A stretch of DNA of 64,000 nt from contig NZ_JACHMW010000001.1 in NCBI RefSeq assembly GCF_014205115.1, positions 2,604,001-2,668,000 of the forward strand. The letters run 5' to 3'. The number at the start of each line of letters is the position of its first letter. Position 1 is the first letter of the stretch. Below, in pieces: positions 2,688 to 18,784 of this stretch. The DNA comes from Micrococcus endophyticus. Lineage in GTDB: Bacteria; Actinomycetota; Actinomycetes; Actinomycetales; Micrococcaceae. Made by a program: the position numbers and the translations under genes. The notes beneath the pieces were generated by a model, which saw only the letters and a program-made list of their open reading frames with translations, was not told the origin of the DNA and did not search any database.

Positions 2688-2868
2688 ATTCCGGGTAGGG
2701 GCGGGCACGACGTCGGTCCATACGGCACGCGACAATGCGCAAAATTCATTTGCGCTAATCCTCTATGGACTAAGTCTCACCCCTCTTGTGCTATTCGTGG
2801 GCCGGGGTAATCTCGATTCCAGCAGCACCGTCCCAGTCCGGGGCGGGCCCGAACCGGAAGGACCTCCC

Positions 2869-3144
2869 ATGACCGCCACCGTCAGCTCCTGCGCCGCCAG
2901 TGCCTGCGCCTTCAATGCCGAGACGTCCTGCAACGCCCTGGCCATCACCGTCGCCGGCTCCGACCGCACGCCCGGCTGCGGCACCTTCGTCCAGCTGGAC
3001 GTCCGCCGCCCGGTGACCGAGGGTGCCTCGACCGTCGGTGCGTGCCACCGCCTCGAGTGCACGTACAACGCCGACCTCGCCTGCACTGCCGAGGGCATCG
3101 AGGTCACGGACGTGGCCACCTGCGCCACCTACTCGATCGACTGA
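2869..3144 (+). CDS. DUF1540 cysteine-rich small protein, two repeats
   Basis: A 91-residue protein built from two repeats with cysteines at 8, 13, 21, 37 and at 59, 64, 72, 85. The spacing is C-x4-C-x7-C followed by a fourth Cys 13-16 residues later. This is the DUF1540 pattern, a likely small metal-binding module; the metal is not known from sequence. The ATG at 2869 is preferred to the in-frame codon at 2788 because GGAAGGA lies 6 nt upstream and the conserved repeat begins directly after it. The upstream region is AT-rich. Next to it on the opposite strand is a gene with a DtxR-type iron box, which makes a metal link plausible but unproven. Confidence 0.8.
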   Translation: MTATVSSCAASACAFNAETSCNALAITVAGSDRTPGCGTFVQLDVRRPVTEGASTVGACHRLECTYNADLACTAEGIEVTDVATCATYSID

Positions 3145-3153
3145 CGCCGCCCC

Positions 3154-3981: not shown

Positions 3982-4013
3982 GGGGGTCCTTCCGGCGGGT
4001 TTCCGGAAACCAG

Positions 4014-4027
4014 TAAGGCACACCTCA
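4014..4027 (-). promoter_or_regulatory. Candidate DtxR/IdeR-type iron box
   Basis: The sequence TAAGGCACACCTCA fits the TnAGG-N4-CCTnA core of the DtxR/IdeR operator and lies 33 nt upstream of the DUF2470-like start. About 11 of 19 positions match the extended consensus, so this is a moderate match. Confidence 0.45.
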
Positions 4028-4102
4028 GTGAGATACGCAAGGCGAGTGTTGTGTATTTATCGGGTGCGGGGCGGTGGGGCGTGTATCAGGAATCGTCTGC
4101 GG

Positions 4103-4156
4103 ATCTGACCCTTCTCGGCGGCCGTGGCCGGGTCAGAAGGGTCCGATGTGCAGAAG
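4103..4156. repeat. 54-nt palindromic dispersed repeat, copy 2
   Basis: Arms GACCCTTCT (4107-4115) and AGAAGGGTC (4134-4142) are perfectly complementary around an 18-nt loop, followed by a GATGTGCAGAAG tail matching the copy at 2634-2687. It lies just downstream of the stop of the PucR-type regulator, where it could also act as a transcription terminator, although no T-run follows on either strand. Confidence 0.65.
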
Positions 4157-4176
4157 AGTCCTAAGGCTCGGGGCTG

Positions 4177-5937
4177 TCACTCCCGGGTGCGCTCCCGGGG
4201 CCGGCGAAGCTCCGCGGCGCGACGACGGGGTTGACTTCGCGCGGGTGGTGCGCCCGGAGCGCCGCCGTCGTCGCGTGCTGCCGAGAGCAGGGCGAGATGG
4301 AGGTCGAGCGACCGCGGGGGCGTGTGCCAGTCGGGCCCCAGGACGGCGCCGAGCTGCTCCAGTCGTTGAAGGACCGTGTTGCGGTGCAGGAAGAGCCGGC
4401 GGGACGTCTCGGCCACGTTCATTCCGGCGTCCAGGTAGGCCAGCGCGGTCTCCCGGAGGGCCGAGGCACGCTGGGGCGGCAGATCGCGCAACGGCGCCAG
4501 CGGGCGGGCCGTCACGTCCTTGCCCGCCTCGCCGACCCCGGCGAGGACCATGCCCACGGCGCCCACGGTCGACGCGTCCACGGCGTGGAGCCCTCCGGCC
4601 ACCCGGCTGACGGCGAGGGCGTTCTCGAGCGTGCGGAACGCTCCCGGCAGATCGCGGAGGTGCTCGCCCGGCCCAAGGAAGGCCATCTGCCATACGGCCT
4701 CCGTCGCGTGCCGAACCGCGGCCTCCACGCGGGCGGGCACATCCGGGCGGTCGCCGACCACGCACCATGTGCCGCCCCACGGGGCGCTGAGGCGCACTCC
4801 GGCGACGGGTGAGAGCACTCGCTCGGCGAACTGGGGTTCGGGTACGGCGGCGAGATCGATGACGACCAAGCTGACCTGTGAATCCTCGCGCAGGCCGAGC
4901 TCGGAGAGCGCCCGACGTCGTCGCACGATTCCACCGGCGGAATCATCGACGAGTTCGGCCAGCAGGCCGGCGCCCGCCTCGAGCTCGGTGGCGCGCCGCG
5001 CGCTGCGGAGCCGTCGTGCGAGCAGGAGGTGCTGCGCGGTCCTGACCAGGGCCTTCTCCTCGGCAGGGTTGAGGGCGCGGCGGACGGCGAGCCAGTCGTG
5101 CGCGTCCCGATCTGCGGCAACGAGCGTCCAGGTGCAGCCGTCCGGCGCCACGACCTGGTGGACCACGCCTGCGGTGTGACGGGAGGGGAGGGTGGGGGCG
5201 GGCCGCAGCGGCGACGTCGGACGTTCGGGGGAGAGGAGTTCCACCTCCACCCCGAAGTGCTCGGAGGCCCGATTGAGCACGGCCGTCTCATTGGGCTCCG
5301 CCAGGAGGGCCTGGCATTGGCGAGAGGAGAGCTCCTCCAGGCGAGTGAGCTCACGCAGGGACTGGCGTTCGTGATCCCGGTCTGCGTCCGCGCGCCCCGC
5401 GGCGTTGAGTGCCTCCGTGTAGCGGTGTGCGTTCTGGATCGCGATGGCGGCATGTTTGGCGAGTGACTCGACGATGGTCACCTCGGAGTGGGTGAACCTC
5501 CGGGCGCGACGTTCGGCGACCATCAGGGCGCCGAGCGGTCGGCCGTCGACGACGAGGGGTGAGCCCATGATCGCGTGGACGCCCTCGGCCTGCACCGCGT
5601 GGTCCACCTGGGGGATGTGGGTGATCGTCGGGTCGTTGGAGTAGTCGAGGCTCTGGAAGGGTGCCAGACCCTCCGCCACCTTCCCGAGCACTCCCGTGCC
5701 GATGGGCATGCGGATCGTCCGGTACGCGTGGGTCACGACGCCCTCAGCCCGGCGGATGTACGTCTCACCTGCTGCGTGGTCATTGAGGCTGAGATACGCC
5801 ATGTCCGTTCCGACGAGGGCCCGAGTACGCCGAACGATGGACGCCAGGACGGATTCGGTGTCGGCCAGTTCCGCGAGGTCGGCAGCCGTGTCGAGCAGGG
5901 CTCGGAGGAGGCGGTGGTCGAGGGCGTCAGTGGACAT
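4177..5937 (-). CDS. GAF domain/PucR-type transcriptional regulator
   Basis: A 586-residue regulator. An N-terminal GAF domain (about residues 15-170, ending HAAIAIQNAHRY) is followed by a coiled-coil linker and a long central region. The C-terminal PucR-type helix-turn-helix lies near residues 500-550 (ALAYLDAGMNVAETSRRLFLHRNTVLQRLEQL). It is divergently placed 122 nt from an alcohol dehydrogenase and a permease gene, so control of those two genes by a small ligand sensed through GAF is the simplest inference. The last 35 residues are Arg/Pro-rich and probably disordered. The ligand cannot be deduced. Confidence 0.85.
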   Translation of the reverse strand: MSTDALDHRLLRALLDTAADLAELADTESVLASIVRRTRALVGTDMAYLSLNDHAAGETYIRRAEGVVTHAYRTIRMPIGTGVLGKVAEGLAPFQSLDYSNDPTITHIPQVDHAVQAEGVHAIMGSPLVVDGRPLGALMVAERRARRFTHSEVTIVESLAKHAAIAIQNAHRYTEALNAAGRADADRDHERQSLRELTRLEELSSRQCQALLAEPNETAVLNRASEHFGVEVELLSPERPTSPLRPAPTLPSRHTAGVVHQVVAPDGCTWTLVAADRDAHDWLAVRRALNPAEEKALVRTAQHLLLARRLRSARRATELEAGAGLLAELVDDSAGGIVRRRRALSELGLREDSQVSLVVIDLAAVPEPQFAERVLSPVAGVRLSAPWGGTWCVVGDRPDVPARVEAAVRHATEAVWQMAFLGPGEHLRDLPGAFRTLENALAVSRVAGGLHAVDASTVGAVGMVLAGVGEAGKDVTARPLAPLRDLPPQRASALRETALAYLDAGMNVAETSRRLFLHRNTVLQRLEQLGAVLGPDWHTPPRSLDLHLALLSAARDDGGAPGAPPARSQPRRRAAELRRPRERTRE

Positions 5938-6059
5938 TTTGCCTACTCTATCCCGTGAGAGATGGACTGGATGTCTATAGCGCTTGAAGGGGTGCGCTGG
6001 TGGGATGAGGGGAGGCCATGAGGCCTACATCACACATCCCCGTCGTGGAAGGCGCTCAC
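5938..6059. promoter_or_regulatory. Divergent promoter region, regulator and dehydrogenase
   Basis: This 122-nt gap holds a possible -10 TATAGC at 5976-5981 for the rightward operon and a weak inverted repeat CTCT-N8-AGAG (5946-5961) that may be a regulator site. A strong GAGGGGAGG at 6007-6015 sits only 2 nt from an in-frame ATG at 6018, too close to serve it well. Confidence 0.35.
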
Positions 6060-7163
6060 ATGCTGATCCGTGGAGCTGTTCTCGAGGAGATCGGCAGGCA
6101 GAGGCCGTACGCCTCGTCCCGTCCCCTCACCGTCTCGGACCTGGAGCTCGATCCCCCGGGCGCAGGCGAGATCCTCGTCCGCATGGAGACTTCGGGCGTG
6201 TGCCACTCGGATCTCTCCGTGGTGAACGGTCATCGTGTTCGGCCCGTCCCCATGCTGCTCGGCCACGAGGCCGCCGGGATCGTCGAGGAGCTCGGTGAGG
6301 GGGTCGACGACGTGGAGATCGGCCAGCGGGTCGTCATGACGTTCCTGCCTCGATGCGGCGAATGCGATGCGTGCAAGACCGACGGTCGCCTGCCCTGCAC
6401 CCCCGGCACGGAGGCGAACAACGCCGGCGTCCTCCTGGGCGGCGGGACCCGACTCCACCGCGACGGCGACGAGGTGTTCCACCACCTGGGCGTCTCAGGA
6501 TTCGCGACCCACGCGGTCGTGAACCGGAAGTCCGTGGTGCCCGTCGGCTCCGACGTGCCGGCCGCCGTCGCTGCGGTCCTGGGATGTGCCGTGCTGACCG
6601 GCGGCGGCGCCCTGCTCAATGCCGCGGCCCCGGAAGAGGGGGACTCCATCGCGATCGTCGGACTCGGCGGCGTGGGGGTCGCGTGCCTTCTGACGGCGGT
6701 GGCGAGCGGTGTGCAGGAGATCATCGCCGTGGACATGTCCGAGGAGAAGCGGGAGCTCGCCCTCAGCTATGGCGCGCATGCCGCCTACTCACCCGAAGAG
6801 ATGGCGGAGCGCGGCATCAAGACCACCCACGCCGTCGAGTGCGCCGGCCATCCGGCGGCCTTCACGACGGCGTTCAACGCGACGTCGCCGGGCGGCAGGA
6901 CCGTCACGGCAGGGCTTCCCTCGCCGGAGCAGACGGCGGAGATCTCACCGCTCACCATCACGGGTGAGGCCCGCACGATCATCGGCTCGTACCTGGGCAC
7001 CTCTGTGCCCGCTCGCGACATCCCGCGATACGAGCAGATGTGGCGTGAAGGTCGGCTGCCCGTGGAGAAGCTCGTCTCCGCGACCATGCGGCTCGACGAC
7101 ATCAACGAAGCGATGGACCAGCTGGCCGATGGCCGTGCGGTCCGTCAGATCATCGAATACTGA
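6060..7163 (+). CDS. Zinc-dependent alcohol dehydrogenase (MDR family)
   Basis: A 367-residue medium-chain dehydrogenase. The catalytic zinc site is seen as GVCHSD and LLGHEAAG, and the structural zinc lobe as four cysteines in CGECDACKTDGRLPC. The NAD-binding Rossmann motif GLGGVGV lies near residues 202-208. These features point to a zinc NAD-dependent primary or aryl alcohol or thiol-adduct dehydrogenase. The start at 6060 is chosen over 6018 because GGAAGG lies 7 nt upstream of it and homologous proteins begin close to this point. The permease follows after 11 nt, indicating an operon, and the PucR-type regulator is divergent. The substrate is unknown. Confidence 0.85.
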   Translation: MLIRGAVLEEIGRQRPYASSRPLTVSDLELDPPGAGEILVRMETSGVCHSDLSVVNGHRVRPVPMLLGHEAAGIVEELGEGVDDVEIGQRVVMTFLPRCGECDACKTDGRLPCTPGTEANNAGVLLGGGTRLHRDGDEVFHHLGVSGFATHAVVNRKSVVPVGSDVPAAVAAVLGCAVLTGGGALLNAAAPEEGDSIAIVGLGGVGVACLLTAVASGVQEIIAVDMSEEKRELALSYGAHAAYSPEEMAERGIKTTHAVECAGHPAAFTTAFNATSPGGRTVTAGLPSPEQTAEISPLTITGEARTIIGSYLGTSVPARDIPRYEQMWREGRLPVEKLVSATMRLDDINEAMDQLADGRAVRQIIEY

Positions 7164-7174
7164 AGGCCACGGAC

Positions 7175-8587
7175 ATGACGACTACTGCGCATCACTCGCT
7201 GGACGACGAAGGCATCGGGGAAGTCTCCCCGCACTGGAAGGCAGGGCCCTTCCAGATCCGCCTGCCGTTCGTGCACTACCGCTTCGAGTGGCCGGACTAC
7301 GTCCAGGGCCTCCTGATGTGCGCCGTGGACCTGGCGGCCATCCCCCTGATGGTCGAACTGCTCGGCATGCCGTTCGAGGTGGCCCTCGCCGTCGTGGTGT
7401 TCAACGGCCTCCTGTACCTCACCCATCACCTCCTCGGCGATCCGGTGGTTCCCGGGTGGATCACCCCGGCGATCCCGCTGGTCATGGCCTACTGCTCAGC
7501 GTTCCCCGAGGGGGAGGAGCGCGTGCATGCACTCATCGCGTTCCAGTTCATGCTGGGCGTCTTCTCGATCACGTTGGGTGCGACGGGACTCGCCTCCAAG
7601 GTGGTCTCGCTGATCCCCTCCGCCATCAAGGCGGGCGTCCTGGTGGGTGCGGGAATCGCCGCCGTCCAGTCACTCTTCGTCGCCGGAGGGCGTTTCGAGA
7701 CCTTCCCGGTCACCATCACGATCGCGGTGGGGATCGCCTTCCTCCTGCTCTTCTCCAGCCGGTTCGCCGCGATGCGGACCAAGAACCCGATGTGGCGCAC
7801 GATCGGCAACCTGGGCATCCTCCCGGTGATCCTCCTGGCCGTGGTCATCGCGCCCCTGGCCGGCGAAGCGCCGTGGCCGACCATCGAGTGGGGGTTCAAC
7901 ACCCCGGACTTCGCGGGCCTCTTCGCCGGATACACGATCTTCGGCATCGGCCTCCCGCCGGCCTCGATGTTCCTCACCGCGCTGCCCACCGTGCTCGCGA
8001 CCTACATCGTCGTGTTCGGTGACGTCCTCCAGTCCCGGGCGATCCTCAAGGAGGCCGACCAGATCCGCACGGATGAGGCGGTCGTGTACAACCCGGACCG
8101 TGCGCACCTGATCTTCGGCGGCCGCAACACCCTCATGTCCATGATCGGTCCGGACGTGGCCATGTGCGGTCCGATCTGGTCTGCCATGCACGTCGTGATC
8201 GTGGAGCGCTACAAGGAAGGCCGCAAGGCCATGAAGTCGATCTTCGGCGGGGCAGGGTCGTTCCGGTGGGGCACGAACACCGGGCTCCTGCTGCTGCCGA
8301 TCGTGACGCTGGTGCAGCCGGTGCTCGGGGTGGCACTGGCCCTGACCCTGCTCATCCAGGGATTCGTGTCCGTGAAGGTCGGCATCATGGAGGCCCGCAG
8401 CCTCAAGGATCTTGGAATCGCGGGAGTCACCGCGGCGGTGCTGGCGTCCAACGGTGCCGCATGGGGCCTGGCGACGGGAGTCATCCTCTGCCTCGTGGTC
8501 TACGGCCGGGACTTCTTCCGCGGTGAGCCGGATGCCACCTTCAAGGCCATGCTCCGCGCGCAGGAGGGCCAGGCCGCCGAGAGCTGA
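7175..8587 (+). CDS. NCS2-like (solute carrier 23-type) permease
   Basis: A 470-residue polytopic membrane protein with about 12 hydrophobic segments, starting near residue 42 after a polar N-terminus. The segment layout and loops resemble the nucleobase/ascorbate (NCS2) and related permease superfamily. Examples are the PSAIKAGVLVGAGIAA re-entrant-like segment and the FGDVLQSRAI loop. It is co-directional with, and 11 nt downstream of, the alcohol dehydrogenase, so it probably imports the compound that enzyme acts on or a precursor. The substrate cannot be assigned. The C-terminal tail is short and cytoplasmic. Confidence 0.65.
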   Translation: MTTTAHHSLDDEGIGEVSPHWKAGPFQIRLPFVHYRFEWPDYVQGLLMCAVDLAAIPLMVELLGMPFEVALAVVVFNGLLYLTHHLLGDPVVPGWITPAIPLVMAYCSAFPEGEERVHALIAFQFMLGVFSITLGATGLASKVVSLIPSAIKAGVLVGAGIAAVQSLFVAGGRFETFPVTITIAVGIAFLLLFSSRFAAMRTKNPMWRTIGNLGILPVILLAVVIAPLAGEAPWPTIEWGFNTPDFAGLFAGYTIFGIGLPPASMFLTALPTVLATYIVVFGDVLQSRAILKEADQIRTDEAVVYNPDRAHLIFGGRNTLMSMIGPDVAMCGPIWSAMHVVIVERYKEGRKAMKSIFGGAGSFRWGTNTGLLLLPIVTLVQPVLGVALALTLLIQGFVSVKVGIMEARSLKDLGIAGVTAAVLASNGAAWGLATGVILCLVVYGRDFFRGEPDATFKAMLRAQEGQAAES

Positions 8588-8813
8588 CCTCTCACGGGCC
8601 GCAGCCGTCGACCGAGGCCTCGGGATGCATCGCCCAGTGCGACGCAGACCGGGGCCTCGGTGCGTGGGTGGGTCTGGCCGCCGGAGGGTCCGCGCGACGA
8701 ACTGAGTCGGAGTGGGAAGCGGCCGTGCCGGGTGAGAGCCGAGACCTGGGATGTCGCCGTGCCAGAATGAGGCCGACTGCCACACCGCCGTGCTCCGAAA
8801 GGCTCTGCCGCCT

Positions 8814-8845
8814 TGGGACTGATGCACGCATAGGTGACAGTCCCA
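8814..8845. repeat. Inverted repeat TGGGACTG/CAGTCCCA
   Basis: Perfect 8-bp arms (8814-8821 and 8838-8845) enclose a 16-nt spacer. The position beside a transposase remnant suggests the end of a decayed insertion sequence, but no second end was found. Confidence 0.4.
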
Positions 8846-8871
8846 TGGCTCGGATCCCGGGCGAACGAGGC

Positions 8872-8994
8872 CCCCTGGGTGGCCTGGCGTTTCAGGATCA
8901 TCCGTACGGCGCGTTCACGCAGCTCGAGGCTGAACTTCTTGGGCATGGTCCGATTCTCCTTCAGTTGGATCGGAACGAAACCCAGGGCGCTTCA
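8872..8994 (-). pseudogene. IS3-family transposase OrfA remnant
   Basis: From the ATG at 8946 the minus strand reads MPKKFSLELRERAVRMILKR, the typical N-terminus of IS3-family OrfA proteins, which contain a helix-turn-helix. Similarity ends after about 20-25 residues and the rest of orfA and all of orfB are missing. Upstream, the sequence beginning TGAAGCGCCC at 8994 may be the terminal inverted repeat of the element. This is therefore the left tip of a deleted insertion sequence at the edge of the restriction block. Confidence 0.65.
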
Positions 8995-9297
8995 GGCTCT
9001 GCCAACGAGGTCACCGGGCCAGCGTCATCCTTCCCGGCTCGGACCTGGGGCGGGTTCCCTGACAGGCGCATCCGCGACGCAGATTTTTGACGAGCCACGC
9101 GCGGAGCCAGGTTGCCGGCTGCCCTCGTGTCAGACTGCAAAGAGATCGACCGATTTCCTGCAGGTCGGCATGACAGGGGAAGCGAGGCGCCAGCACCATG
9201 GCACCCACCGAGGCTCGAACGGCGGCGTTAGATCAGAGGCACAGCTACGACGTGATAACTGACGGCCATCTGCTCATCTCCCAGGGGAATGGGTGTC

Positions 9298-10158
9298 ATG
9301 CATAAGGCGCCCCCTCCAGAACGGGATTCGCGACTGCCGTTCACCGTTCTGCTCGCGGACGCCCCCGGGCAACCGATCGAGATCCACGATCACTCCGTCG
9401 GCCTCCACATGGTTCTCGTCGAGAAGTCGTCGGTGCACTGGTTGAACACGGATTGGGACGTCACCGGCGTCTACCTGTTGCTTGACCTTGTCCAAGCCGA
9501 CGGGTCCTTCGGTGCCTATGTTGGGAAGTCCCCGGCAGGGGTGCGGTCACGGCTACAGCAGCACGAGCGAGAGAAATCCTGGAACCGCGCCCTCTTGATC
9601 CGCCGGTCTACGTTGCACGGGTTGACCTCCGCGCAGGCAGGGTGGCTGGAAGGCGACCTCCATGAGCTCCTGCGCGCATCCGAGCGCGCTGTTCTTAGCA
9701 ACTCTGTAACGCCCGGTGACGACACCGTCCCCTCCTACGACCAGACCATCCTGGAATCGTTTCGAGATCCCATCGTTCGTGTCCTCCGCCTCCTCGGCTA
9801 CGAGACGGAGAGTGTGGATTCCAGCTCTCCGGCCGGTGGAACGCAGCAACGACGAAGCAGCAAGTACGCCGGCATTCAGCTCGCCGACCTCATCGGCACC
9901 GATCTCCTTCATGCAGGGGACCGGCTGATCTCGGTCAACAGCTCGTGGCCGGCCAGCGCGAGCGTGAACAGTGACGGGACCATCTCCTGCAACGCCACTT
10001 CGTACACGTCGCCCTCCGCGGCCGCGGCCGCAGTAAGGGGCGGGGCGGCCAACGGCTGGGACTTCTGGGCCGTCGAAGGCCCGGGCAAGTCCGTTCGCCT
10101 GGCCACTTTGCGTGAGCAGTACTTCGAACAGCGAGAAGCGGAGGGCTCAGACACCTGA
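9298..10158 (+). CDS. GIY-YIG nuclease with C-terminal RAMA/DUF4357-like domain
   Basis: A 286-residue two-domain protein. Residues about 55-125 show a GIY-YIG nuclease core: GVY (57-59), AYVGKS (73-78), the catalytic Arg in GVRSR (81-85), and a Glu in WLEGDL (E118). Residues about 195-280 match the RAMA domain (restriction enzyme adenine methylase associated, related to DUF4357): LADLIGTDLLHAGD, then SPSAAAAAV, then NGWDFW, ending in LREQYF. RAMA is predicted to bind modified or specific DNA. The ATG at 9298 is preferred over 9289 because AGGGGA is then correctly spaced. It precedes the MmeI-like gene by 97 nt in the same direction. It may be an auxiliary, modification-dependent nuclease. 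Confidence 0.75.
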   Translation: MHKAPPPERDSRLPFTVLLADAPGQPIEIHDHSVGLHMVLVEKSSVHWLNTDWDVTGVYLLLDLVQADGSFGAYVGKSPAGVRSRLQQHEREKSWNRALLIRRSTLHGLTSAQAGWLEGDLHELLRASERAVLSNSVTPGDDTVPSYDQTILESFRDPIVRVLRLLGYETESVDSSSPAGGTQQRRSSKYAGIQLADLIGTDLLHAGDRLISVNSSWPASASVNSDGTISCNATSYTSPSAAAAAVRGGAANGWDFWAVEGPGKSVRLATLREQYFEQREAEGSDT

Positions 10159-10172
10159 GCAACCCAAAAGCC

Positions 10173-10226
10173 GTCCTGCAGCAAGGCCGAGATCCATACG
10201 GGCTGGCTGACAGGACACTGCAGGAC
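10173..10226. repeat. Intercistronic inverted repeat GTCCTGCAG/CTGCAGGAC
   Basis: Perfect 9-bp arms at 10173-10181 and 10218-10226 are separated by 36 nt, in the gap between the GIY-YIG gene and the MmeI-like gene. It could be an operator or an mRNA hairpin controlling the restriction enzyme. No T-run follows. Confidence 0.45.
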
Positions 10227-10255
10227 TGATGATTTCGGACCCCGGAGGGACACAC

Positions 10256-13048
10256 ATGGCAGACCAGGCGCAGGCTGCGCGCAAGCGCGCCGCGAAGGAG
10301 TTCGCGGAGAAGTGGGCCGGACGCGGCTATGAGAAGGGCGACACGTCCTCGTTCTGGCTCGAGCTGCTGCGCGATGTGGTCGGCATGGAGGACGTGACCA
10401 CCAACGTCCGGTTCGAGAACCGCACCACCGAGCGGGGCTTCATCGACGTCGTCATCCGCGACGCCAAGACCGTGATCGAGCAGAAGTCTCTCGGCGTCGA
10501 CCTGGACAAGGCCGAGATGCGCCAGGGCGTGGCTGTGACCCCCTTCGGGCAGGCCAAGCGCTACGCCGACTCCCTCCGGAACTCGGAGCGGCCAGACACG
10601 ATCATCGTCTGCGATTTCGACCGCTTCCGCATCCACGACCTGGACACCGAGCACCCCGAGCGGGACTACGAAGAGTTCCGCCTGGCCGAGCTGCCCGAGC
10701 AGCTGCACCTGCTGGACTTCCTCCTTGACCCCCAGCGCGAGCGGCAGCGACGCGAGACGCAGGTCTCCCTGGACGCCGGCGCCCTGATCGGCAAGCTCTA
10801 CGACATGCTGCGGGCGCAGTACCTCGACCCCGACTCCGAAGCGTCGATGCACTCGCTGAACGTGCTGTGCGTGCGGCTGGTGTTCCTGCTGTTCGCCGAG
10901 GACGCCGGCCTGTTCCCCAAGAACGCGTTCTACCACTACCTCAAGCCGGTGCCGGCCGATCGGGCCCGGGCCGCGCTCAAGGAGCTCTTCGCCTACCTCA
11001 ACGCCGCCCCGCAGGAGCGGGACCCCTACGCCTCGGAAGCACTGAAGGCCTTCCCCTACGTCAACGGCGGCCTGTTCGCCGCGGACGTGGAGATCCCCCA
11101 GCTGACCCAGGACATCGTCGACATGCTCCTGGATGAGGTCAGTGAGGGTACGGACTGGTCCCAGATCAGCCCCACCGTGTTCGGCGGCGTGTTCGAGTCC
11201 ACCCTGAACCCCGAGACCCGCCGTTCCGGGGGCATGCACTATACCTCCCCGCAGAACATCCACCGGCTGATCGACCCGCTGTTCCTGGACGAGCTAAAGG
11301 CCGAACTGGACGGCATCCTCACCGCCCAGGGCGTGGGGGACCGTAAGCGACGCAACGAGCTGACCCGGTTTCACGACAAGATCGCCGGCCTGAGGTTCTT
11401 CGACCCGGCCTGCGGGTCCGGGAACTTCCTCACCGAGACCTACATCCAGCTGCGCAAGCTCGAGAACAAGATCCTCTCCGTGCTCCTGCACGACCAGGGC
11501 GTCTTCGAGCTCCAGGAGCAGCACTCCCCCCTGAAGGTCTCCCTGCAGCAGTTCCACGGCATCGAGATCAACGACTTCGCCGTGAACGTGGCGACCACGG
11601 CCCTGTGGATCGCCGAGCTGCAGGCCAACGCCGAAGCCGAGACCATCGTCTACGGCATGGTCAAGGACCTCCCCCTGAAGGACTCCGCCCACATCGTGCT
11701 CGGCAACGCCCTGACCGTGGACTGGGCCGAGGTCCTGGACCCGGCCGAGTGCGACTACATCATCGGCAACCCCCCGTTCCTCGGCTACTCGAACCTGTCC
11801 TTGGAACAGAAGGCCGACCGTCAGAAGGTGATGGGGGCGGCCGGAGGCGTTCTGGACTTCGTCACGTGCTGGTTCGCGCTCGCTGGCCAGTACATGGGGG
11901 GCACCCGAACACAGGCGGCCTTTGTTGCCACGAACTCGATCTGCCAGGGCCAGCAGGTCCAGCCGCTGTGGAAGCCACTTTTCGAGGCCGGGGTGGTCAT
12001 CAACTTCGCCCATCGCACCTTTACTTGGGCAAGCGAATCCAAGGACGCGGCCCACGTGCACGTGGTGATCGTGGGCTTCGGTTATCACTCCTGGTCACAG
12101 AAGACGTTGTTCACACATCTGCGGGGCGGGGAGGTCGCGGTTGAGCATCCAGACAACATCAACGCCTATCTCGCACCAGCGCCCAACCTGTTCATCGCCA
12201 AGCGCAGTAAGCCATTGAGCGCCCCGGTGCAGATGATCGCCGGAGGGAAGCCGACGGATGGAAAGCATCTGCTGCTCAGCAGGGAAGCGCGCGATGAGCT
12301 GGTGGCAGCTGAACCAGCGGCTGAGGAATGGATTCGGCCGTTCTCCATGGGCGAGGAGTTCATCTCAGGGACCGAGCGGTTCTGCCTGTGGCTGGTGGAC
12401 TGCCCGCCGGAAATCCTGAAAACCATGCCTCTGGTCAGGGAAAGGGTTGAACGGGTCAGGTCCATGCGGCTGGCATCGCCTAAGCCGGCCACACAGGCGA
12501 AGGCGGCGGTCCCGTGGCGCTTCGACGAGGTCAAGTACCGCGGAGAGGGCGATTACATCGCGGTGCCAAAGGTGTCCTCTCAGCGCCGCGTATACGTCCC
12601 CATCGGGTTCGTTACGGACGGGATGATCCCTGGCGACAAGCTGTTCTACATCCCGTCGGAGTCCCGTTACGTCTTCGGAGTCCTGATGTCCCGCGTCCAT
12701 AATGCGTGGATGCGGTCTGTGGGCGGCCGCCTCAAGAGCGACTACAGCTACGCCAACACGCTGATCCACAACACGATGGTGTGGCCAGACACCTCTGACT
12801 CACAGCGTGAGAAGATCGAGAAGGCTGCTCAGGCCGTGCTGGATGCGCGAGCAGAGCACCCGCAGGCTTCACTGGCGGATCTGTATGAACCGGACGACGC
12901 CTGGCTCTACCCGGCTCTCACCGCCGCGCACCAGGCCCTCGATGACGCCGTGGAGCGGGCCTACGGGCTCGAACCTGGCCTAGACGAAGCTGACCTGGTC
13001 GCGCACCTGTTCGAGCTGTACGGCAAGGCTGTAGGAGCCACCTCGTGA
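10256..13048 (+). CDS. MmeI-like type IIL restriction-modification enzyme
   Basis: A 930-residue single-chain restriction endonuclease/DNA adenine methyltransferase, close to the roughly 919 residues of MmeI. The N-terminal PD-(D/E)xK nuclease is seen as D64-x10-E75-Q-K77, in GFIDVV...VIEQK, after a helical lead. A helical spacer (about 150-330) follows. The methyltransferase core has motif I FDPACGSGNFL (about 381-391) and motif IV NPPF (about 505-508), diagnostic of N6-adenine methylation. A divergent target-recognition region (about 610-800) and a helical C-terminus complete the layout. GGAGGG 7 nt upstream of the ATG at 10256 favours this start over 10229. The recognition sequence cannot be predicted. 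The stop overlaps the recombinase stub start (GTGA). Confidence 0.88.
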   Translation: MADQAQAARKRAAKEFAEKWAGRGYEKGDTSSFWLELLRDVVGMEDVTTNVRFENRTTERGFIDVVIRDAKTVIEQKSLGVDLDKAEMRQGVAVTPFGQAKRYADSLRNSERPDTIIVCDFDRFRIHDLDTEHPERDYEEFRLAELPEQLHLLDFLLDPQRERQRRETQVSLDAGALIGKLYDMLRAQYLDPDSEASMHSLNVLCVRLVFLLFAEDAGLFPKNAFYHYLKPVPADRARAALKELFAYLNAAPQERDPYASEALKAFPYVNGGLFAADVEIPQLTQDIVDMLLDEVSEGTDWSQISPTVFGGVFESTLNPETRRSGGMHYTSPQNIHRLIDPLFLDELKAELDGILTAQGVGDRKRRNELTRFHDKIAGLRFFDPACGSGNFLTETYIQLRKLENKILSVLLHDQGVFELQEQHSPLKVSLQQFHGIEINDFAVNVATTALWIAELQANAEAETIVYGMVKDLPLKDSAHIVLGNALTVDWAEVLDPAECDYIIGNPPFLGYSNLSLEQKADRQKVMGAAGGVLDFVTCWFALAGQYMGGTRTQAAFVATNSICQGQQVQPLWKPLFEAGVVINFAHRTFTWASESKDAAHVHVVIVGFGYHSWSQKTLFTHLRGGEVAVEHPDNINAYLAPAPNLFIAKRSKPLSAPVQMIAGGKPTDGKHLLLSREARDELVAAEPAAEEWIRPFSMGEEFISGTERFCLWLVDCPPEILKTMPLVRERVERVRSMRLASPKPATQAKAAVPWRFDEVKYRGEGDYIAVPKVSSQRRVYVPIGFVTDGMIPGDKLFYIPSESRYVFGVLMSRVHNAWMRSVGGRLKSDYSYANTLIHNTMVWPDTSDSQREKIEKAAQAVLDARAEHPQASLADLYEPDDAWLYPALTAAHQALDDAVERAYGLEPGLDEADLVAHLFELYGKAVGATS

Positions 13049-13182
13049 AGCTCGGCTATGTCCGCGTGAGCACCCGCGACCAGGAAGGCTCCCTCCAGGC
13101 CCAGGAGACTGCGCTGGCCGGGGCCGGCTGCTCGAAGAGCTTCCAGGACCGGCTCTCGGGGGCCAGAGCCGACCGGCCCTGA
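13045..13182 (+). pseudogene. Truncated serine recombinase (resolvase/invertase) N-terminus
   Basis: The GTG at 13045 overlaps the TGA of the MmeI-like gene. The 45 codons read VKLGYVRVSTRDQEGSLQ..., ending SGARADRP then TGA at 13180. This is the first third of the resolvase catalytic domain, with the nucleophilic Ser at residue 9 (YVRVST) and the conserved GARADRP segment. The rest of the catalytic domain and the DNA-binding domain are missing. It is too short to be an active recombinase. It is best explained as a remnant left at the junction when the restriction gene or the next gene was inserted. Confidence 0.8.
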
Positions 13183-13215
13183 CACCTCGGGACGACCTGG
13201 CCTTAGGGCCCCCGT

Positions 13216-13227
13216 TAGGCTCGTCCC
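13216..13227 (+). promoter_or_regulatory. Leaderless-type -10 (TAGGCT) for the GmrSD-like gene
   Basis: TAGGCT (13216-13221) is followed by 6 nt and then the ATG at 13228. No Shine-Dalgarno sequence is visible, so transcription probably starts at or next to the start codon. Confidence 0.5.
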
Positions 13228-15768
13228 ATGGTCGCCGCGCGTGAAGTCACCCTTCAGGAACTCCTCGGGGGCTCCTACCAGTACACGGTCCCGCTCTATC
13301 AGCGGACGTACTCCTGGGGCCGCCCGCAGTGGCAACGACTGTGGGAGGACGTCGTGGACGTCGCCGACCACCGGCGGGACAACCCGTCGGCAACCCACTT
13401 CATCGGCTCCCTCGTTCTCGCCGGCTTCCGGGACAACGGGCCCGGCGGCGTCCAGCGGTGGCTCGTGGTGGACGGGCAGCAGCGACTGACGACGCTGACG
13501 CTCCTCCTCGCCGCTGTCCGCGACCACCGGGCTGAGCACGAAGGCCCCATGCACGCCGATCGGGTCAACGAGAAGTACCTGGTCAACAAGTGGGAGGACG
13601 GCGATCTCCGCTACAAGGTCCTGCCCACCCAGGCCGACCGTGCCGCCTACCGCGGGCGGATCGAGCACGCCCCGGACGCTGCCGAGGGCTCCAGGATCAG
13701 CGAAGCCCACCAGTTCTTCCTGACGAAGCTGTTCGGGTTGAGTCAACCGTCTGCTGACGGTGAAGAGGAGCAGCTGACCTTGGCGGAGGTTGAGTCCGCC
13801 GTCGTCGCCGGCCTGTCGATCGTGTCCGTGACCACCGGGGAGAACGACAACGCTCACCGCATCTTCGAGTCGCTGAACAACACCGGCCTCAAGCTCACCC
13901 AAGGCGACCTGCTCAGGAACTACCTGTTCATGCAGCTGCCCACACGGGCGGATGAGGTCTACACCACCCTGTGGCTCCCGTTGCAGAACCTGCTCTCCAA
14001 TGAGGAACTGGAGACGCTGTTCTGGCTTGACCTGGTGCAACAGGATCCCAAGGTCCGCCAGACGGAGATCTACGCGGGGCAGCAGCGTCGCATGCGTGGC
14101 CTGCAGGATGAGTCGCAGGTCAGGGCGGAAGTCGAGCGGTTCCTGGCGTTGGGGCGTCTCTACGACGTCATGCTCCGTCCGGAGAAGGAGAAGGACGCCG
14201 CAGTGCGGTTCCGCTTGGCGCGCCTGCGCGCCTGGCGCACGACGACGACGTTCCCCATCACACTGCACCTGATGGAGCGCCGGTCCTTGGGGGACATCGA
14301 CTCGGACGAACTGGCCCGTGCGCTCCTCTACCTCGAGTCGTACCTGGTCCGGCGCCTCGTCTTCGGCCGCTACTCCGACGGTCTCAACACCACCTTGCTC
14401 GCGGCGACGGCGGACATCCAAGGTCAGGACGATCCGGCGGATGCCCTGCACCGCTTCCTCTCCAGCGGACGGAAGCACTTCGCCTCCGACGATCAGATCC
14501 GCCAGGCCGTGATGACGGCACCCTTCTATACGACGGGCCGGGCGGCCCACCGGAAGCTGATCCTCCGGTGGATCGAGGAGTCCTACGGCAGCAAGGAGCC
14601 GGTGGATCTCGACAGCGCGACCATCGAGCACGTCATGCCGCGGACGCTCACGGAGGAGTGGGAGCGCGCTCTGGCCGGTCAGCTCGAGGCGCACCAGGAC
14701 CTTCGAGAGGTGCACACCGAGCTCCTGCACACCTTGGGCAACCTCACCCTCACCGGGTACAACAGCGAGCTGAGCAATGGGCCCTTCGCGGTCAAGCGTG
14801 CGGAGCTGGCCAAGAGCGGCATCCGCATGAACCAGGAGATCTCCGCTGAGCCGGTATGGGGTCCCGCGCAGATCCGTGCTCGCGCCGAGCGGCTGGCGGA
14901 CCGGATCGTCGGCATCTGGCCGGGACCCTCAGCAGAGGCCGCCTCCGGAGTCGCTCACACGGCCTGGCAGACGCTGACGGATGCCGTCGCGGCCATTCCC
15001 GACGGGTCCTGGACCTCCTACGGCGAACTCGCACGGCTGATCGGAAGCCATCCGGTCCCCGTGGGCACCTACCTCGCACGGACGGCCCTGCCGCACGCTC
15101 ATCGTGTGCTCCAGGCGGGAGGCACCGTCTCTCCGTCCTTCCGGTGGCCCGACGTCCACCGCACGGACGATCCGCACGACGTCCTCGCAGCCGAAGGCGT
15201 GCGCTTCTCCGAGGACGGACGGGCCGACGGCGGCCAGCGGCTGTTGGCGGAGCAGCTCGCCGAGCTCATCGATGTCGACGTCGACCTGACCGATCCCCGG
15301 TCGCTCGCCGCCCCGGGCAACGACCCTGCGCTGCGGGACCGCTGGGTCGACCGACTGCACGACCACAACGATCCCGAATCGGCCCGCGCACTGATCGAGG
15401 TCCAACGAGGCTGGGTCGAGCGCGGTGGCCGGGCGGAATTCGCGGACAATGCCGCCGGCGGTTGCTTCTTGGTCGTCCCGCGCGCGTCAGCACGCGTTAT
15501 CTGGCCGGTGATCCTGTACCCGACGTACGGCGTCGAGGTCGTCTTCTATCATCTGGCGAAGTGGGCTCCCTTCACGGACGAGGCGCTTCTCGACGAATTC
15601 CGGGGGCGTCTGAATCTCGTCCCCGGGCTGGAATTCGGCCCTGAGGCTCTCCGTCGGCGCCCGAGCATCAGGCCGCAGATCCTTCAGCCGGCCGCGGCGC
15701 AGGAGGCGTTCCTCGATGCGCTGGAGTGGTTCCTGCACACCGTCCAGGAGGACGACAGAAGTGCCTGA
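13228..15768 (+). CDS. GmrSD-like DUF262/DUF1524 protein with alkyltransferase-like domain
   Basis: An 846-residue protein. The N-terminal DUF262 (ParB/sulfiredoxin-like nucleotidase) domain shows YQRTYSW (24-30), FIGSLVL and VVDGQQRLTTL (about 75-86). A central helical region leads to a DUF1524 His-Me nuclease domain, IEHVMPRTL (about 466) and HTLGNLTLTGYNSELS (about 503-518). Then comes a domain resembling the DNA-binding part of O6-alkylguanine transferases (about 577-680: IPDGSWTSYGELA, VGTYLARTALPHAHRVL). The transferase PCHR Cys is replaced by PHAHR, so it should bind, not repair. A further C-terminal domain of about 110 residues ends the protein. GmrSD-type proteins are type IV restriction enzymes for modified DNA. 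It has its own leaderless-type promoter. Confidence 0.8.
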   Translation: MVAAREVTLQELLGGSYQYTVPLYQRTYSWGRPQWQRLWEDVVDVADHRRDNPSATHFIGSLVLAGFRDNGPGGVQRWLVVDGQQRLTTLTLLLAAVRDHRAEHEGPMHADRVNEKYLVNKWEDGDLRYKVLPTQADRAAYRGRIEHAPDAAEGSRISEAHQFFLTKLFGLSQPSADGEEEQLTLAEVESAVVAGLSIVSVTTGENDNAHRIFESLNNTGLKLTQGDLLRNYLFMQLPTRADEVYTTLWLPLQNLLSNEELETLFWLDLVQQDPKVRQTEIYAGQQRRMRGLQDESQVRAEVERFLALGRLYDVMLRPEKEKDAAVRFRLARLRAWRTTTTFPITLHLMERRSLGDIDSDELARALLYLESYLVRRLVFGRYSDGLNTTLLAATADIQGQDDPADALHRFLSSGRKHFASDDQIRQAVMTAPFYTTGRAAHRKLILRWIEESYGSKEPVDLDSATIEHVMPRTLTEEWERALAGQLEAHQDLREVHTELLHTLGNLTLTGYNSELSNGPFAVKRAELAKSGIRMNQEISAEPVWGPAQIRARAERLADRIVGIWPGPSAEAASGVAHTAWQTLTDAVAAIPDGSWTSYGELARLIGSHPVPVGTYLARTALPHAHRVLQAGGTVSPSFRWPDVHRTDDPHDVLAAEGVRFSEDGRADGGQRLLAEQLAELIDVDVDLTDPRSLAAPGNDPALRDRWVDRLHDHNDPESARALIEVQRGWVERGGRAEFADNAAGGCFLVVPRASARVIWPVILYPTYGVEVVFYHLAKWAPFTDEALLDEFRGRLNLVPGLEFGPEALRRRPSIRPQILQPAAAQEAFLDALEWFLHTVQEDDRSA

Positions 15769-15831
15769 CAGCCCTGCCAGGGGCAGGTCCTGACGACGCG
15801 CCGACCCCCTCACCCCGTCCGCCCCACCCAT

Positions 15832-15843
15832 TACGCTCGCCCC
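15832..15843 (+). promoter_or_regulatory. Leaderless-type -10 (TACGCT) for the small basic gene
   Basis: TACGCT (15832-15837), then 6 nt, then the ATG at 15844; no Shine-Dalgarno sequence is present. Confidence 0.45.
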
Positions 15844-16053
15844 ATGAAGATCGGTCTCCGCAAGCCCAGCCTGAAGAAGTCCATCAAGGCCCGCACCACG
15901 GGCCGCGCCAAGCGGGCGATCAAGCGCAAGCTCATCCCCGGTTACGGCCGCAAGGGGATGGGCTGGCTGCGCGATCCGAAGCGCGCCGCCTACAACGCCG
16001 TCTACCGGCGCACCACGGTCGGGCTGGGCGACGTCCTGAAGATGTTTCGATGA
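15844..16053 (+). CDS. Small basic phage-like hypothetical protein
   Basis: A 69-residue, strongly basic protein (KKSIKARTTGRAKRAIKRKLIPGYG, then RDPKRAAYNAVYRRTT, with a central GMGW). Small proteins with this KARTTG...IPGYGKKGMGW pattern occur in Gram-positive genomes and phage-like islands; none has a function known to me. It might bind nucleic acid because of its charge. It overlaps the next frame by ATGA at 16050, suggesting translational coupling. It lies at the right edge of the accessory block. Confidence 0.65.
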   Translation: MKIGLRKPSLKKSIKARTTGRAKRAIKRKLIPGYGRKGMGWLRDPKRAAYNAVYRRTTVGLGDVLKMFR

Positions 16054-16423
16054 GCACGCGCAGCAGCATCCCCGACGCCGTCGATACGGACCGGACCGCC
16101 GGCACCATCGAGCTCCTCGAACCGCCCCGTGAGGCCGTGGAGTGGATGGAGTCGCCGGACCGGCCCACGGACCTCTGGTGGACCACCAAGGTCCGCGGGG
16201 AGGTGGACCCGTACTGGCACGAACTGAAGAGCGCCGCTCAGATCGCGGATCTGGTGCACGCACTCACCGACCCCCAGGACCTCGTCCAGCCGCTTCAGGA
16301 ACTGACTAACGCCGAGACCATCGAAGTGCTAGTCAGCTGGGCGCAGGGCCACGGCCTCCCGTTGCCCTACGGGGGGCCCTGCGCACGTACGGCTACCCGC
16401 CGGACCCGGGGCTCGTCGCGTGA
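16050..16423 (+). pseudogene. Small hypothetical gene, probable 1-nt frameshift
   Basis: The ATG at 16050 overlaps the stop of the preceding gene. The frame encodes a plausible acidic protein (MSTRSSIPDAV... to GHGLPLPYGG) up to the six-G run at 16371-16376. There it loses G/C third-position bias and runs on through the spacer into the downstream pterin dehydratase gene. With one extra G the continuation would read ALRTYGYPPDPGLVA and stop at 16421-16423, restoring codon bias. Either this is a sequencing or homopolymer error, or the gene is a recent frameshift mutant. No family is recognised. Confidence 0.6.
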
Positions 16424-16484
16424 TCGCCGGCGGTCGTGTCGCGCGGCCGCCTCGTCCCCGCACCGCACCAGGCATCATGGCCCA

Positions 16485-17222
16485 ATGACGTCCACCCTGG
16501 ACCTCCTCGCCGCCACCCCGGCCCTCCGCCCGCTCGACCCGGCGGACGTCGCCGCGGCGCTCGCGGCCGCGCCCGAGCTGGCCGGCTGGGCGGTCGCCGC
16601 CCCCGAGGCTCCCGTCGCCGCCCCGCCCGAACTCGCCATCACCTACGCCACCGGCGACTTCGCCACCGCCCTCGCCCTGGCCGACCGGATCGGGGAGGCC
16701 GCCGAGGCCGCCGACCACCACCCGGACCTCGCTGTCTCCTACGGCCGGCTCGGCGTGCGCATGCACAGCCACGACGTCCGCGCCCTCACCTCCCGGGACG
16801 TCCGCCTGGCCCGCACCGTCGCCCGCCTCGCCGCCGAGGTGCTCGCGCCCACCGCCCTGGCCGCCTACGGCACCCTCGCGCCGGGCCGCTCGAACGCGCA
16901 CGTCATGGACGGCGTCCGCGGCCCGTGGACGCCCGGCACCGTCCGCGGCGTGCTCCACGCCAGCGGCGCCGGCGCCGCCACGGGCTACCCGGGCGTCGTC
17001 CTCGCCACCCCGGCCGCAGCGGAGCACCCCGCCGCCCAGATCGCCGACGTCCCCGCCCAGCTGCTGGTCTCCGTCGACCTCCCGGACCACTGGGACCGCC
17101 TCGACGCCTTCGAGGGCGCCGGCTACCGGCGCGTGCCCGCCGTCGTCGCCCTGGACGACGACGCCGTCCGTCCCGCCTACCTCTACGAGCTGGTCCCCGA
17201 TGCCGTCCCGCCGTCCGCCTGA
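16485..17222 (+). CDS. Pterin-4a-carbinolamine dehydratase/gamma-glutamylcyclotransferase fusion
   Basis: A 245-residue two-domain protein. Residues about 5-115 form a PhhB/PCD domain: a helix ending EAAEAADHHPDLAVSYGRLGVRMHSHD and LTSRDVRLART carries the conserved HHP and tH...D residues of 4a-hydroxytetrahydrobiopterin dehydratase. Residues about 125-245 form a gamma-glutamylcyclotransferase-like (AIG2) domain: YGTLAPGRSN, GVLH, GYPGVVL, and RLDAFEGAGYRR. That combination would link pterin recycling to gamma-glutamyl or related amide chemistry, but no biochemical link is known to me. CATCAT 6 nt upstream of the ATG at 16485 suggests a leaderless transcript. The upstream frame reads in phase into this gene because of the frameshift at 16371. 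Confidence 0.8.
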   Translation: MTSTLDLLAATPALRPLDPADVAAALAAAPELAGWAVAAPEAPVAAPPELAITYATGDFATALALADRIGEAAEAADHHPDLAVSYGRLGVRMHSHDVRALTSRDVRLARTVARLAAEVLAPTALAAYGTLAPGRSNAHVMDGVRGPWTPGTVRGVLHASGAGAATGYPGVVLATPAAAEHPAAQIADVPAQLLVSVDLPDHWDRLDAFEGAGYRRVPAVVALDDDAVRPAYLYELVPDAVPPSA

Positions 17223-17925
17223 GCGCCCCGTCGTCGGCCCCGCCGCTCCCGACGTCGCCCCGTCCCGTCCGGTCCCCGGGTCCTGTCAGCGCGCGCTCGT
17301 CCGGCGCTCGCCGCTGATCCTCGCCGCGGTCGTGCTGCTTGTCAGCGCCGCCGTCCTCGCCGCCCGGGGCGAGACGGAGGCGGCCGGCCTCAGCGTGCAG
17401 ATCGCGATGGTCGTCCCCGTGACGATCGCCGTCGAGCGCGCGGCCCGGGTCCGCCTGCCCACCTCCCTGCACGCGATGTATGCGGCTCTCCTGCTGTCCG
17501 CCCCGTGGCTGGGCGCCGCACTCGGGCGCTACGCCGCCTGGCCGTGGTGGGACGTCCTCGTGCACTTCTTCTCGGGCGTGCCCATCGCGCTGGGGGCCGT
17601 CCTGCTCCTGGGCGTCGCCGCCGCCCGCCGGAGCCTGGTCATGCCGCCCGGGCTCGAGGCCCTCACCGTGGTGGGGCTGCACTCGCTCGTGGCCCTGGCG
17701 TGGGAGGTCGCCGAGTTCACCGCGGACCAGGTGCTCGGCGCCCAGACGCAGAAGGGCAACACGGACACCATGACGGACCTGATCGTGGGCACGCTGGGGG
17801 CGCTGCTCGTCGCGCTCGCCCTGTACGCGCACCGCACCCGGGGACGGTTCCCCTGGCTGGCCCGCTTCGCCGGGGCTCGGACGGACCTCGCCTGCGGGGG
17901 GCCGGCGCAGCCGCCGCCGGCCTGA
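17200..17925 (+). CDS. DUF2238/YjdF-like integral membrane protein
   Basis: A 241-residue membrane protein with about six hydrophobic segments. It carries the motifs WWDVLVHFFSGV near residue 120 and WEVAEFTADQVLGAQTQKGNTDTMTDLIVG near residues 165-195. These match the pattern of DUF2238/YjdF-type proteins (D-x-x-x-H-x-x-x-G, then W-E-x-x-E and a DT-x-x-D-L loop). Function unknown. Its ATG overlaps the end of the PCD/GGCT gene by 23 nt, consistent with co-expression. The first 30 residues are Pro/Arg-rich and probably cytoplasmic. Confidence 0.65.
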   Translation: MPSRRPPERPVVGPAAPDVAPSRPVPGSCQRALVRRSPLILAAVVLLVSAAVLAARGETEAAGLSVQIAMVVPVTIAVERAARVRLPTSLHAMYAALLLSAPWLGAALGRYAAWPWWDVLVHFFSGVPIALGAVLLLGVAAARRSLVMPPGLEALTVVGLHSLVALAWEVAEFTADQVLGAQTQKGNTDTMTDLIVGTLGALLVALALYAHRTRGRFPWLARFAGARTDLACGGPAQPPPA

Positions 17926-17983
17926 GCCCGCGACGCCGTCGCCTCAGTGGGCGACGCCGCCGGCCCGGGCCGCAGCCCGCCCC

Positions 17984-18784
17984 TCACTGGCCCGCGAAGG
18001 CCTCCACCCGCCGCACGGCCTCCGGATGCTCGGACGCCGCCGCGATCGACGCCGCCTCCTGCCGCACGTGCGCGCGCAGCGCCTCGACGTCGGCCCCGCG
18101 CGCCAGCGCCTTCGTCGGCCCATAGGTGTGCGCCGGACCGGCCACCAGCTCGTCCTCGAGCTCCGCCAGACGTGCCGCGAACGCGTCGCCGGCCACCGCC
18201 TCAGTCGCCAGGCCCCACGCGACGGCCTCGGCCCCGTTCAGGCGCCGCCCGCCGAGCAGCAGCTGCGTCGCGCGCACCGGCCCGAGCACCCGCGGCAGCC
18301 AGTAGGACACGCCCGTGTCCGGGGTCATCCCGAGCGCGGAGAACGCCGTCACCAGCTGGGCGTCCTCGCGCACCAGCACGACGTCGCCGCCCAGCATGAG
18401 CCCGAGCCCCGCCCCGGCGGCCGTCCCGTTGACGCCGGCCAGCACCAGCAGGCGAGAGCCCGTCAGCGCCACCGCGACCTCGCCCGCCGCCTCGCCGAGC
18501 TCCTGGATCATCGTGCGCCGCTCCGGCCCGGCGGGGGAGGCAGCCATGGCCTGGACGTCCCCGCCGCCGCAGAAGATCCGCCCCGCGCCGGTCAGCGTGA
18601 GCACGTGCACGGACTCGTCCGCCTCGGCCGCGGCGATCGCCGCGAGCACCTCGCGCGCCATCGTCAGTCCGAGCGCGTTGCCCTTCGCGGGCCGGTTCAG
18701 CGTCAGCCGCACGACGCCGGGCCGCGTCTCGACGAGGACGGCGGGGGCGTCGTCGGCGGAGGAAGGGGTGGGCGCGGTGGTCAT
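17984..18784 (-). CDS. Enoyl-CoA hydratase/isomerase family protein
   Basis: A 266-residue crotonase-fold protein. The oxyanion-hole segments are seen as GRIFCGGGDVQAM (about 68-80) and VNGTAAGAGLGLMLGGDVV (about 112-130), with the trimerisation/active-site loop GMTPDTGVSYWLPRVLG. The position that holds a catalytic Glu in many hydratases is not clearly Glu here, so isomerase or other crotonase activity is possible. GGAGC lies 5 nt upstream of the ATG at 18784. It is the last gene of a minus-strand run with an acyl-CoA dehydrogenase, acyl-CoA ligase and thiolase, pointing to fatty or aryl acyl-CoA degradation. Confidence 0.85.
   Translation of the reverse strand: MTTAPTPSSADDAPAVLVETRPGVVRLTLNRPAKGNALGLTMAREVLAAIAAAEADESVHVLTLTGAGRIFCGGGDVQAMAASPAGPERRTMIQELGEAAGEVAVALTGSRLLVLAGVNGTAAGAGLGLMLGGDVVLVREDAQLVTAFSALGMTPDTGVSYWLPRVLGPVRATQLLLGGRRLNGAEAVAWGLATEAVAGDAFAARLAELEDELVAGPAHTYGPTKALARGADVEALRAHVRQEAASIAAASEHPEAVRRVEAFAGQ

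Follow-up and report, generated by a model that had tools for sequence, protein, structure and literature searches.

A variable defence site in Micrococcus has most probably taken up two independent modules, the first composed of a GIY-YIG nuclease with a RAMA domain (gene i) and a single-chain restriction-modification (R-M) enzyme of the MmeI family (gene ii), the second of a GmrSD type IV restriction enzyme which carries an alkyltransferase-like (ATL) domain (gene iii). The site lies in the window, i.e. the whole stretch of 64,000 nucleotides that was analysed, from a Micrococcus genome (G000) represented by one contig of 2,710,986 bases. It was compared with other genomes (G-numbers), including the very close relative M. 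lacusdianchii (G068), and with individual loci (L-numbers).

The three genes are long reading frames on the + strand, open and full length, with a coding-like GC content across codon positions: (i) extends from 9289 to 10158, (ii) from 10229 to 13048 and (iii) from 13228 to 15768, leaving 70 bases between (i) and the longest frame of (ii), and 179 bases between (ii) and (iii). The GC content of the island is 64-68%, against 67-79% in the rest of the window. To the left of (i), an insertion element fragment (8845 to 9004, no strand assigned) has three other partial copies in the same genome (144-162 bases, 85-86% identity). The end of (ii) is overlapped by a serine resolvase/invertase stub (13045 to 13179, + strand), 76% identical over 45 amino acids to a full serine resolvase in G061 and matching a phrog invertase at 1.7e-13. 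On the right, a gene of 69 amino acids (15844 to 16053, + strand) matches phage families down to 4.2e-31 and 87 of 50,697 phage records, and 8 of 11 same-genus genomes have it too. A sequence-only reading of the window had described this insertion debris, recombinase stub and phage-like small gene, all of which are real, as indicated by the genome copies, the resolvase identity and the phage-family matches; the three enzyme classes it had assigned were likewise right, given the Pfam and PADLOC domains, the structure matches and the intact full-length frames. Relatives of the 69-aa gene, up to 72% identical, occur in Streptococcus, Paenibacillus and other phages, and a second, damaged or partial copy was seen in G044, G150 and G139. 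A scan for the sigma-70 consensus found no promoter (0.5 expected in shuffled sequence), so that it demonstrates no separate promoter for (iii), while four terminator-like sites were counted against 2.8 expected; Rfam gave no match within 8000-18000.

The product of (ii) matches five MmeI Pfam domains, all over their cut-offs, in one chain: an N-terminal nuclease, a helical spacer, a methyltransferase, a target recognition domain (TRD) and a C-terminal domain, which is the type IIL layout. The MmeI structure 5hr4 matches residues 19-934 at 1.4e-180. The start at 10256 is favoured because GGAGGG precedes the ATG there; counted from it, the nuclease site D64-E75-K77 proposed previously is correct, and in the numbering from 10229 the residues D73/E84/K86 align with D70/E80/K82 of MmeI. 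Both methylase motifs noted earlier are present, as FFDPACGSGNF (AdoMet) and NPPF. The five domains, the catalytic D-E-K and these motifs are all in common with MmeI (5hr4; PMC4833311), whereas the target-reading residues differ, the target of MmeI being TCCRAC and that predicted for (ii) CCGCAG (PMC4833311, available text). The prediction was obtained by mapping the base-reading residues onto the MmeI rules published in that text, and would give C at position 1 (K752, E767), C at position 2 (K674, though residue 642 is Ala and not Tyr), G at position 3 (K781, D803), C at position 4 (S840, K804), A at position 5 and G at position 6 (K836, D838). As the rules are presented in the accessible portion of the paper, they are firmest for positions 3 and 6, include one described change for position 4, and consist of less simple correlations for positions 1 and 2 (PMC4833311). 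As a separate observation, four loci (L060-L063, in G088, G041, G011 and G093) hold MmeI relatives whose frame breaks where the AdoMet motif is encoded, corresponding to window residues ~392-402; some 2.7 kb carrying an alcohol-dehydrogenase-like frame lie there in G088 and G041, and in G093 a short loss is accompanied by a frame change.

The specificity part of (ii) has been replaced inside an otherwise common gene, as follows from matching flanks around a middle and later protein blocks which diverge. At the DNA level, G000 and G068 share ~95% identity over window positions 2700-12079 and 96% over 12926-16280, and no DNA match was found between the two for 12080-12925, a + strand segment of (ii) which contains most of the TRD. 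The protein comparison agrees: in each block as far as residue 500, 46 to 50 of the 50 residues are the same, and beyond it 14-30 of ~50, with the divergence beginning between residues 501 and 550 and the last blocks lowered since the G068 copy ends. In general, MmeI-type enzymes are known to exchange domains. A transposase frame with IS481-type and rve domains splits the G068 copy, and the order of (ii) and (iii) in that genome was inferred, because the end of the MmeI gene adjoins GmrSD on another contig.

Gene (i) encodes a GIY-YIG domain at approximately residues 45-140, followed by a RAMA domain at residues 184-283. RAMA membership is indicated by both profile and fold: Pfam PF18755 matches at 9.7e-17, an AlphaFold2 model (pLDDT 85.7) superposes on the RAMA region of CcrM with Z 13.6 (rmsd 2.3, 89 residues), the RAMA domain of MPND is matched as well, and RAMA chains rank first in a Foldseek search of the PDB. 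For the GIY-YIG half, no Pfam GIY-YIG match to the window protein was obtained at E <= 1, while PF01541 matches 14 of 25 family members (best 3.3e-6). No GIY-YIG chain was among the best 50 PDB matches listed by Foldseek, and UvrC emerged only on realignment, with a Z of 6.1 (rmsd 2.5, 79 residues) which tops the unrelated rows yet lies below the guide value of Z 8. Y62, Y77, R88 and E121, which we take to be the GIY-YIG catalytic residues, belong to the columns that do not vary across the 25 rows of an alignment made of the window protein and 24 of 27 scanned loci (L077, L090 and L091 were left out), and the model appears to place these active-site tyrosines, arginine and glutamate in a GIY-YIG fold. 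Against viral structures, Foldseek returned one match at E <= 0.001, the unnamed protein M4QMU8.

The protein matches the PADLOC family PDC-S14 over its full length (5.6e-106). PDC families come from genes located inside defence systems; the PDC-S14 entry has no description. GIY-YIG-RAMA fusions, uncharacterised, have been named as candidate 6mA readers, and by that description (the text accessed gives no sequences) they have the same two-domain architecture as (i) (PMC11037411). A further likeness is CMoRE / PD-T4-3, a type IV nuclease of the GIY-YIG class directed at 5hmC and 5ghmC, which is also a single gene with an N-terminal GIY-YIG and a C-terminal sensing domain; it is set apart by its description, since its sensing domain is presented without homologues in the available text whereas (i) has RAMA (PMC12923530).

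Relatives of (i) are linked above all to R-M genes. They were collected by a scan with two short peptide patterns, which kept 27 of 74 stretches and therefore yields a sample, and their neighbours within 5 kb were sought with single-protein baits at E <= 1e-5. HsdM, HsdS or HsdR was found at 14 of the 27 loci, MmeI at one (L065, M. lacusdianchii itself) and GmrSD at none; 12 loci gave no Hsd, MmeI or GmrSD match within 5 kb, although absences in L069, L086 and L091 carry little weight, as these contigs are shorter than 6 kb. Thus (i) adjoins an MmeI gene, while most of its R-M-linked relatives adjoin type I R-M genes, at times very tightly: in L079, L080, L082, L086 and L089 the relative lies at most four bases from the HsdS stop or overlaps it, with HsdR right behind. 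This strong R-M linkage of GIY-YIG-RAMA proteins is new in detail, and (i) is most simply seen as an accessory nuclease belonging to R-M modules. A plasmid collection held two partial matches to (i). One of the sampled loci, L091, is a short record (3579 bases) labelled as a metagenome-assembled genome of Brevibacterium senegalense, where the end of HsdR shares 97% identity with Micrococcus G044 and the GIY-YIG protein shares 93% with its counterpart in G014; such likeness may reflect either a recent transfer or a misbinned contig.

The pairing of (i) with an MmeI-type enzyme was examined through two family scans, PDC-S14 (1e-15) and MmeI_TRD, of one class sample of 394 genomes. PDC-S14 was present in 24 genomes and MmeI_TRD in 15, with G000, G410 and G430 having both; the two matches of G410 are ~958 kb apart. 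Near full-length matches to PDC04921 were restricted to G000 and G430, the other 22 covering the profile in part. In G430 (L125) the near full-length relative of (i) lies 1.6 kb from a methylase of 914 amino acids with MmeI spacer, methylase, TRD and C-terminal domains and no MmeI_N match, which is followed by an overlapping PLD-SNF2 helicase of 1089 amino acids (L125 10568-17470). The association of (i) and (ii) might consequently be tighter than the type I links imply. Between these enzymes and the GIY-YIG-RAMA gene, the same stretch of L125 also encodes a protein of 276 amino acids to which Pfam gave no match.

The second module is the single gene (iii), whose product combines in one chain, as a GmrSD type IV enzyme does, a DUF262 domain with DGQQR (residues 10-234) and a DUF1524 domain with HNH-type residues (419-558), and matches GmrSD_N, GmrSD_C and DNA_binding_1 in Pfam. 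The DUF262 DGQQR and DUF1524 HNH features are the same in GmrSD/BrxU (PMC8565348) and in the GmrSD proteins with PF01035, described in 2015 as several homologues, mainly in Streptomyces; the accessible portion of that paper also reports GmrSD with DUF4357, with DUF4268, and beside type I R-M genes (PMC4619093). The ATL domain of (iii) (residues 582-657; 14971 to 15198, + strand) matches PF01035 at 2.1e-7 and Atl1 at 2.4e-5 (A2 profile), and by profile the ATL structures 3gva (Atl1) and 2kif. The motif PCHR contains the acceptor cysteine of alkyltransferases; by eye, none of the seven aligned proteins has a cysteine at that position. The C-terminal part (15250 to 15765, + strand) is assigned to no family, with a best Pfam E of 0.31, and it differs from the DUF4268 end of the relatives in G045 and G031; a single-sequence model of 14944-15765 had a pLDDT of 48.6, too low for use. 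The end of a 1296-aa helicase-like protein of G034 (L029 9854-13744) matches residues 694-844 of (iii) at 35%. In L018 and L019 and in G128 and G080, a GmrSD is followed in one frame of 710-719 amino acids by a RAMA/DUF4357-like stretch which resembles the end of (i). The plasmid collection returned 210 matches to (iii), one of which covers at least 80% of the query; for the matched Streptomyces plasmid, neither MmeI nor GIY-YIG is annotated over 18.5 kb in the PLSDB tables, which are themselves incomplete. Among viral contigs there were ten GmrSD relatives, and none matches past residue 571.

The boundary of the second module and the exchange of its neighbours are visible in the comparison of Micrococcus genomes. 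GmrSD-ATL, at a protein identity of at least 95%, is present in five of nine same-genus genomes, and (i) and (ii) accompany it in two of those five; among its relatives in G068, G044, G014 and G150 only G068 has them, which speaks for two modules. The DNA common to G000, G014, G044 and G150 starts at window position 13173/13174, between (ii) and (iii), and the stretch from 13173 to 13228 marks the start of the GmrSD-ATL module. To its left, G044 carries HsdR, an SF1 helicase and Mrr; G014 carries HsdR, a second GIY-YIG gene and two DUF262 proteins; and G150 carries HsdM, HsdS, HsdR, a second GIY-YIG gene and two DUF262 proteins. Next to the 69-aa border gene, G139 has HsdM, HsdS and HsdR with no GmrSD-ATL, and G108 has another GmrSD; G090 has, among these markers, the 69-aa gene alone. 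The GmrSD-ATL frame is unbroken in G068, G044 and G150, and that of G014 has an in-frame stop after residue 705. Its DNA identity to (iii) is 97.5% in G068, 97.0% in G150, 96.3% in G044 and 94.3% in G014, against a yardstick of 95.1% (G150) and 96.0% (G044) for the crotonase gene and 86.7% (G044) for the acyl-CoA dehydrogenase region; as the similarity of the module does not clearly exceed that of all its neighbours, a recent transfer between species is only suggested. In G061, the full resolvase is 190 amino acids long and its frame overlaps the end of an MmeI relative 72% identical to (ii), which suggests that the MmeI gene may have arrived with a resolvase, the remainder of which was lost where GmrSD-ATL now begins.

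Some observations weigh against two independent modules. The second GIY-YIG protein of G014 and G150, 28% identical to (i) and with a DUF4357 end, belongs to another subtype of PDC-S14 (9e-86) and lies 3621 and 3633 bases, respectively, from GmrSD-ATL, so that some PDC-S14 protein is near GmrSD-ATL in four of the five genomes, although in G068 the two are on separate contigs. In two of these four genomes PDC-S14 stands directly behind HsdR, which fits a linkage to R-M genes as well as one to GmrSD. The 12 sampled loci of (i) without Hsd or MmeI and the G430 pairing count on the same side, as does the sigma-70 scan, which gave no promoter of its own for (iii).

According to the two-module explanation, the right border of the site would be formed by the 69-aa gene together with, in most cases, a crotonase gene. 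In the first module, (ii) would act as a type IIL R-M enzyme with (i) as its accessory nuclease just upstream, probably in one operon. Judging from its family, (ii) should methylate adenine on one strand of its own target, the predicted CCGCAG, and cut DNA lacking the mark, for a type IIL enzyme at a distance of about 20/18 bases, while (i) should supply a second nuclease whose RAMA domain may sense a feature of the DNA. In the second module, (iii) would hydrolyse NTP through DUF262 and cut modified DNA through the HNH of DUF1524, probably with the help of a catalytically dead ATL domain in finding altered bases. Together, (ii) and (iii) might provide complementary cover, in the manner of BREX and the GmrSD-family BrxU, which share one island and were shown experimentally, in the part of the work available, to cleave unmodified and modified phage DNA in a complementary way (PMC8565348).

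A broader view of (i), which we regard as speculative and rather unlikely, is that PDC-S14 GIY-YIG-RAMA proteins are general sentinel nucleases of adenine-methylating R-M systems, in which RAMA would read the methylation or occupancy of host sites and the nuclease would fire when a phage blocks or mimics the R-M system. It would span the type I operons with the gene between hsdS and hsdR, the MmeI enzyme of the window and the G430 MmeI-type methylase with its PLD-helicase.

It is also unlikely that (i) acts as a type IV nuclease which depends on m6A, its RAMA domain working like the winged-helix m6A reader found in other GIY-YIG fusions and the host being spared self-attack as the m6A context differs from that of (ii). 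The matches to the RAMA domains of CcrM and MPND and the naming of GIY-YIG-RAMA fusions as candidate 6mA readers agree with this possibility, but the adenine methyltransferases encoded next to relatives of (i) would mark host DNA, and for the MPND RAMA a preference for 6mA could not be verified, as stated in the accessible text (PMC11037411). Since the neighbours of (i) write m6A, the protein is unlikely to cut every m6A site.

The sequence-only reading had proposed instead a single layered system, in which (ii) cuts unmodified DNA, (iii) modified DNA, and (i) helps. The three genes are compact and on the same strand, the trio is kept in G068, G014 and G150 too have a PDC-S14 protein about 3.6 kb away from GmrSD-ATL, and G430 has its relative of (i) 1.6 kb from an MmeI-type methylase, all partly in favour of that proposal. 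However, of the 149 genomes sampled from the family, G000 and its very close relative G068 alone yielded the trio, so the expected conserved co-occurrence did not materialise; in G044, G014 and G150 (iii) has no adjoining (i) and (ii), its neighbours being type I R-M genes, Mrr or further DUF262 genes; the resolvase stub and the sharp homology edge divide (ii) from (iii); the MmeI gene is broken in G068; and relatives of (i), mostly tied to type I R-M, had GmrSD within 5 kb at none of the 27 loci. A co-evolved trio is accordingly judged quite improbable, and on this neighbourhood comparison the three-gene system was rejected as the leading reading. Its idea of layering retains the BREX and BrxU precedent for complementary cleavage by island neighbours (PMC8565348), while the specific partnership of the three is unsupported. 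Among the open-literature matches listed, no account of the three-gene combination was found, a scope outside which most subscription papers and preprints fall.

It is very improbable that the locus consists of decaying remains which no longer function: insertion sequence and resolvase remnants and the broken copies of MmeI in G068 and of GmrSD in G014 could be read in this way, but each of the three window frames has its full length and keeps its motifs intact, and three other genomes have an unbroken GmrSD-ATL.

Every class of component involved is already described, and the two-module explanation of the site draws its novelty from this particular assembly, the replacement of the TRD, the predicted target and the R-M linkage of GIY-YIG-RAMA proteins. 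The last of these raises the question of what a GIY-YIG-RAMA nuclease recognises and for what reason it is carried at so many R-M loci. A naturally varying type IIL enzyme receives a concrete predicted target, CCGCAG. For Micrococcus, one site is seen to swap both whole restriction modules and an inner specificity segment, while its border stays constant.
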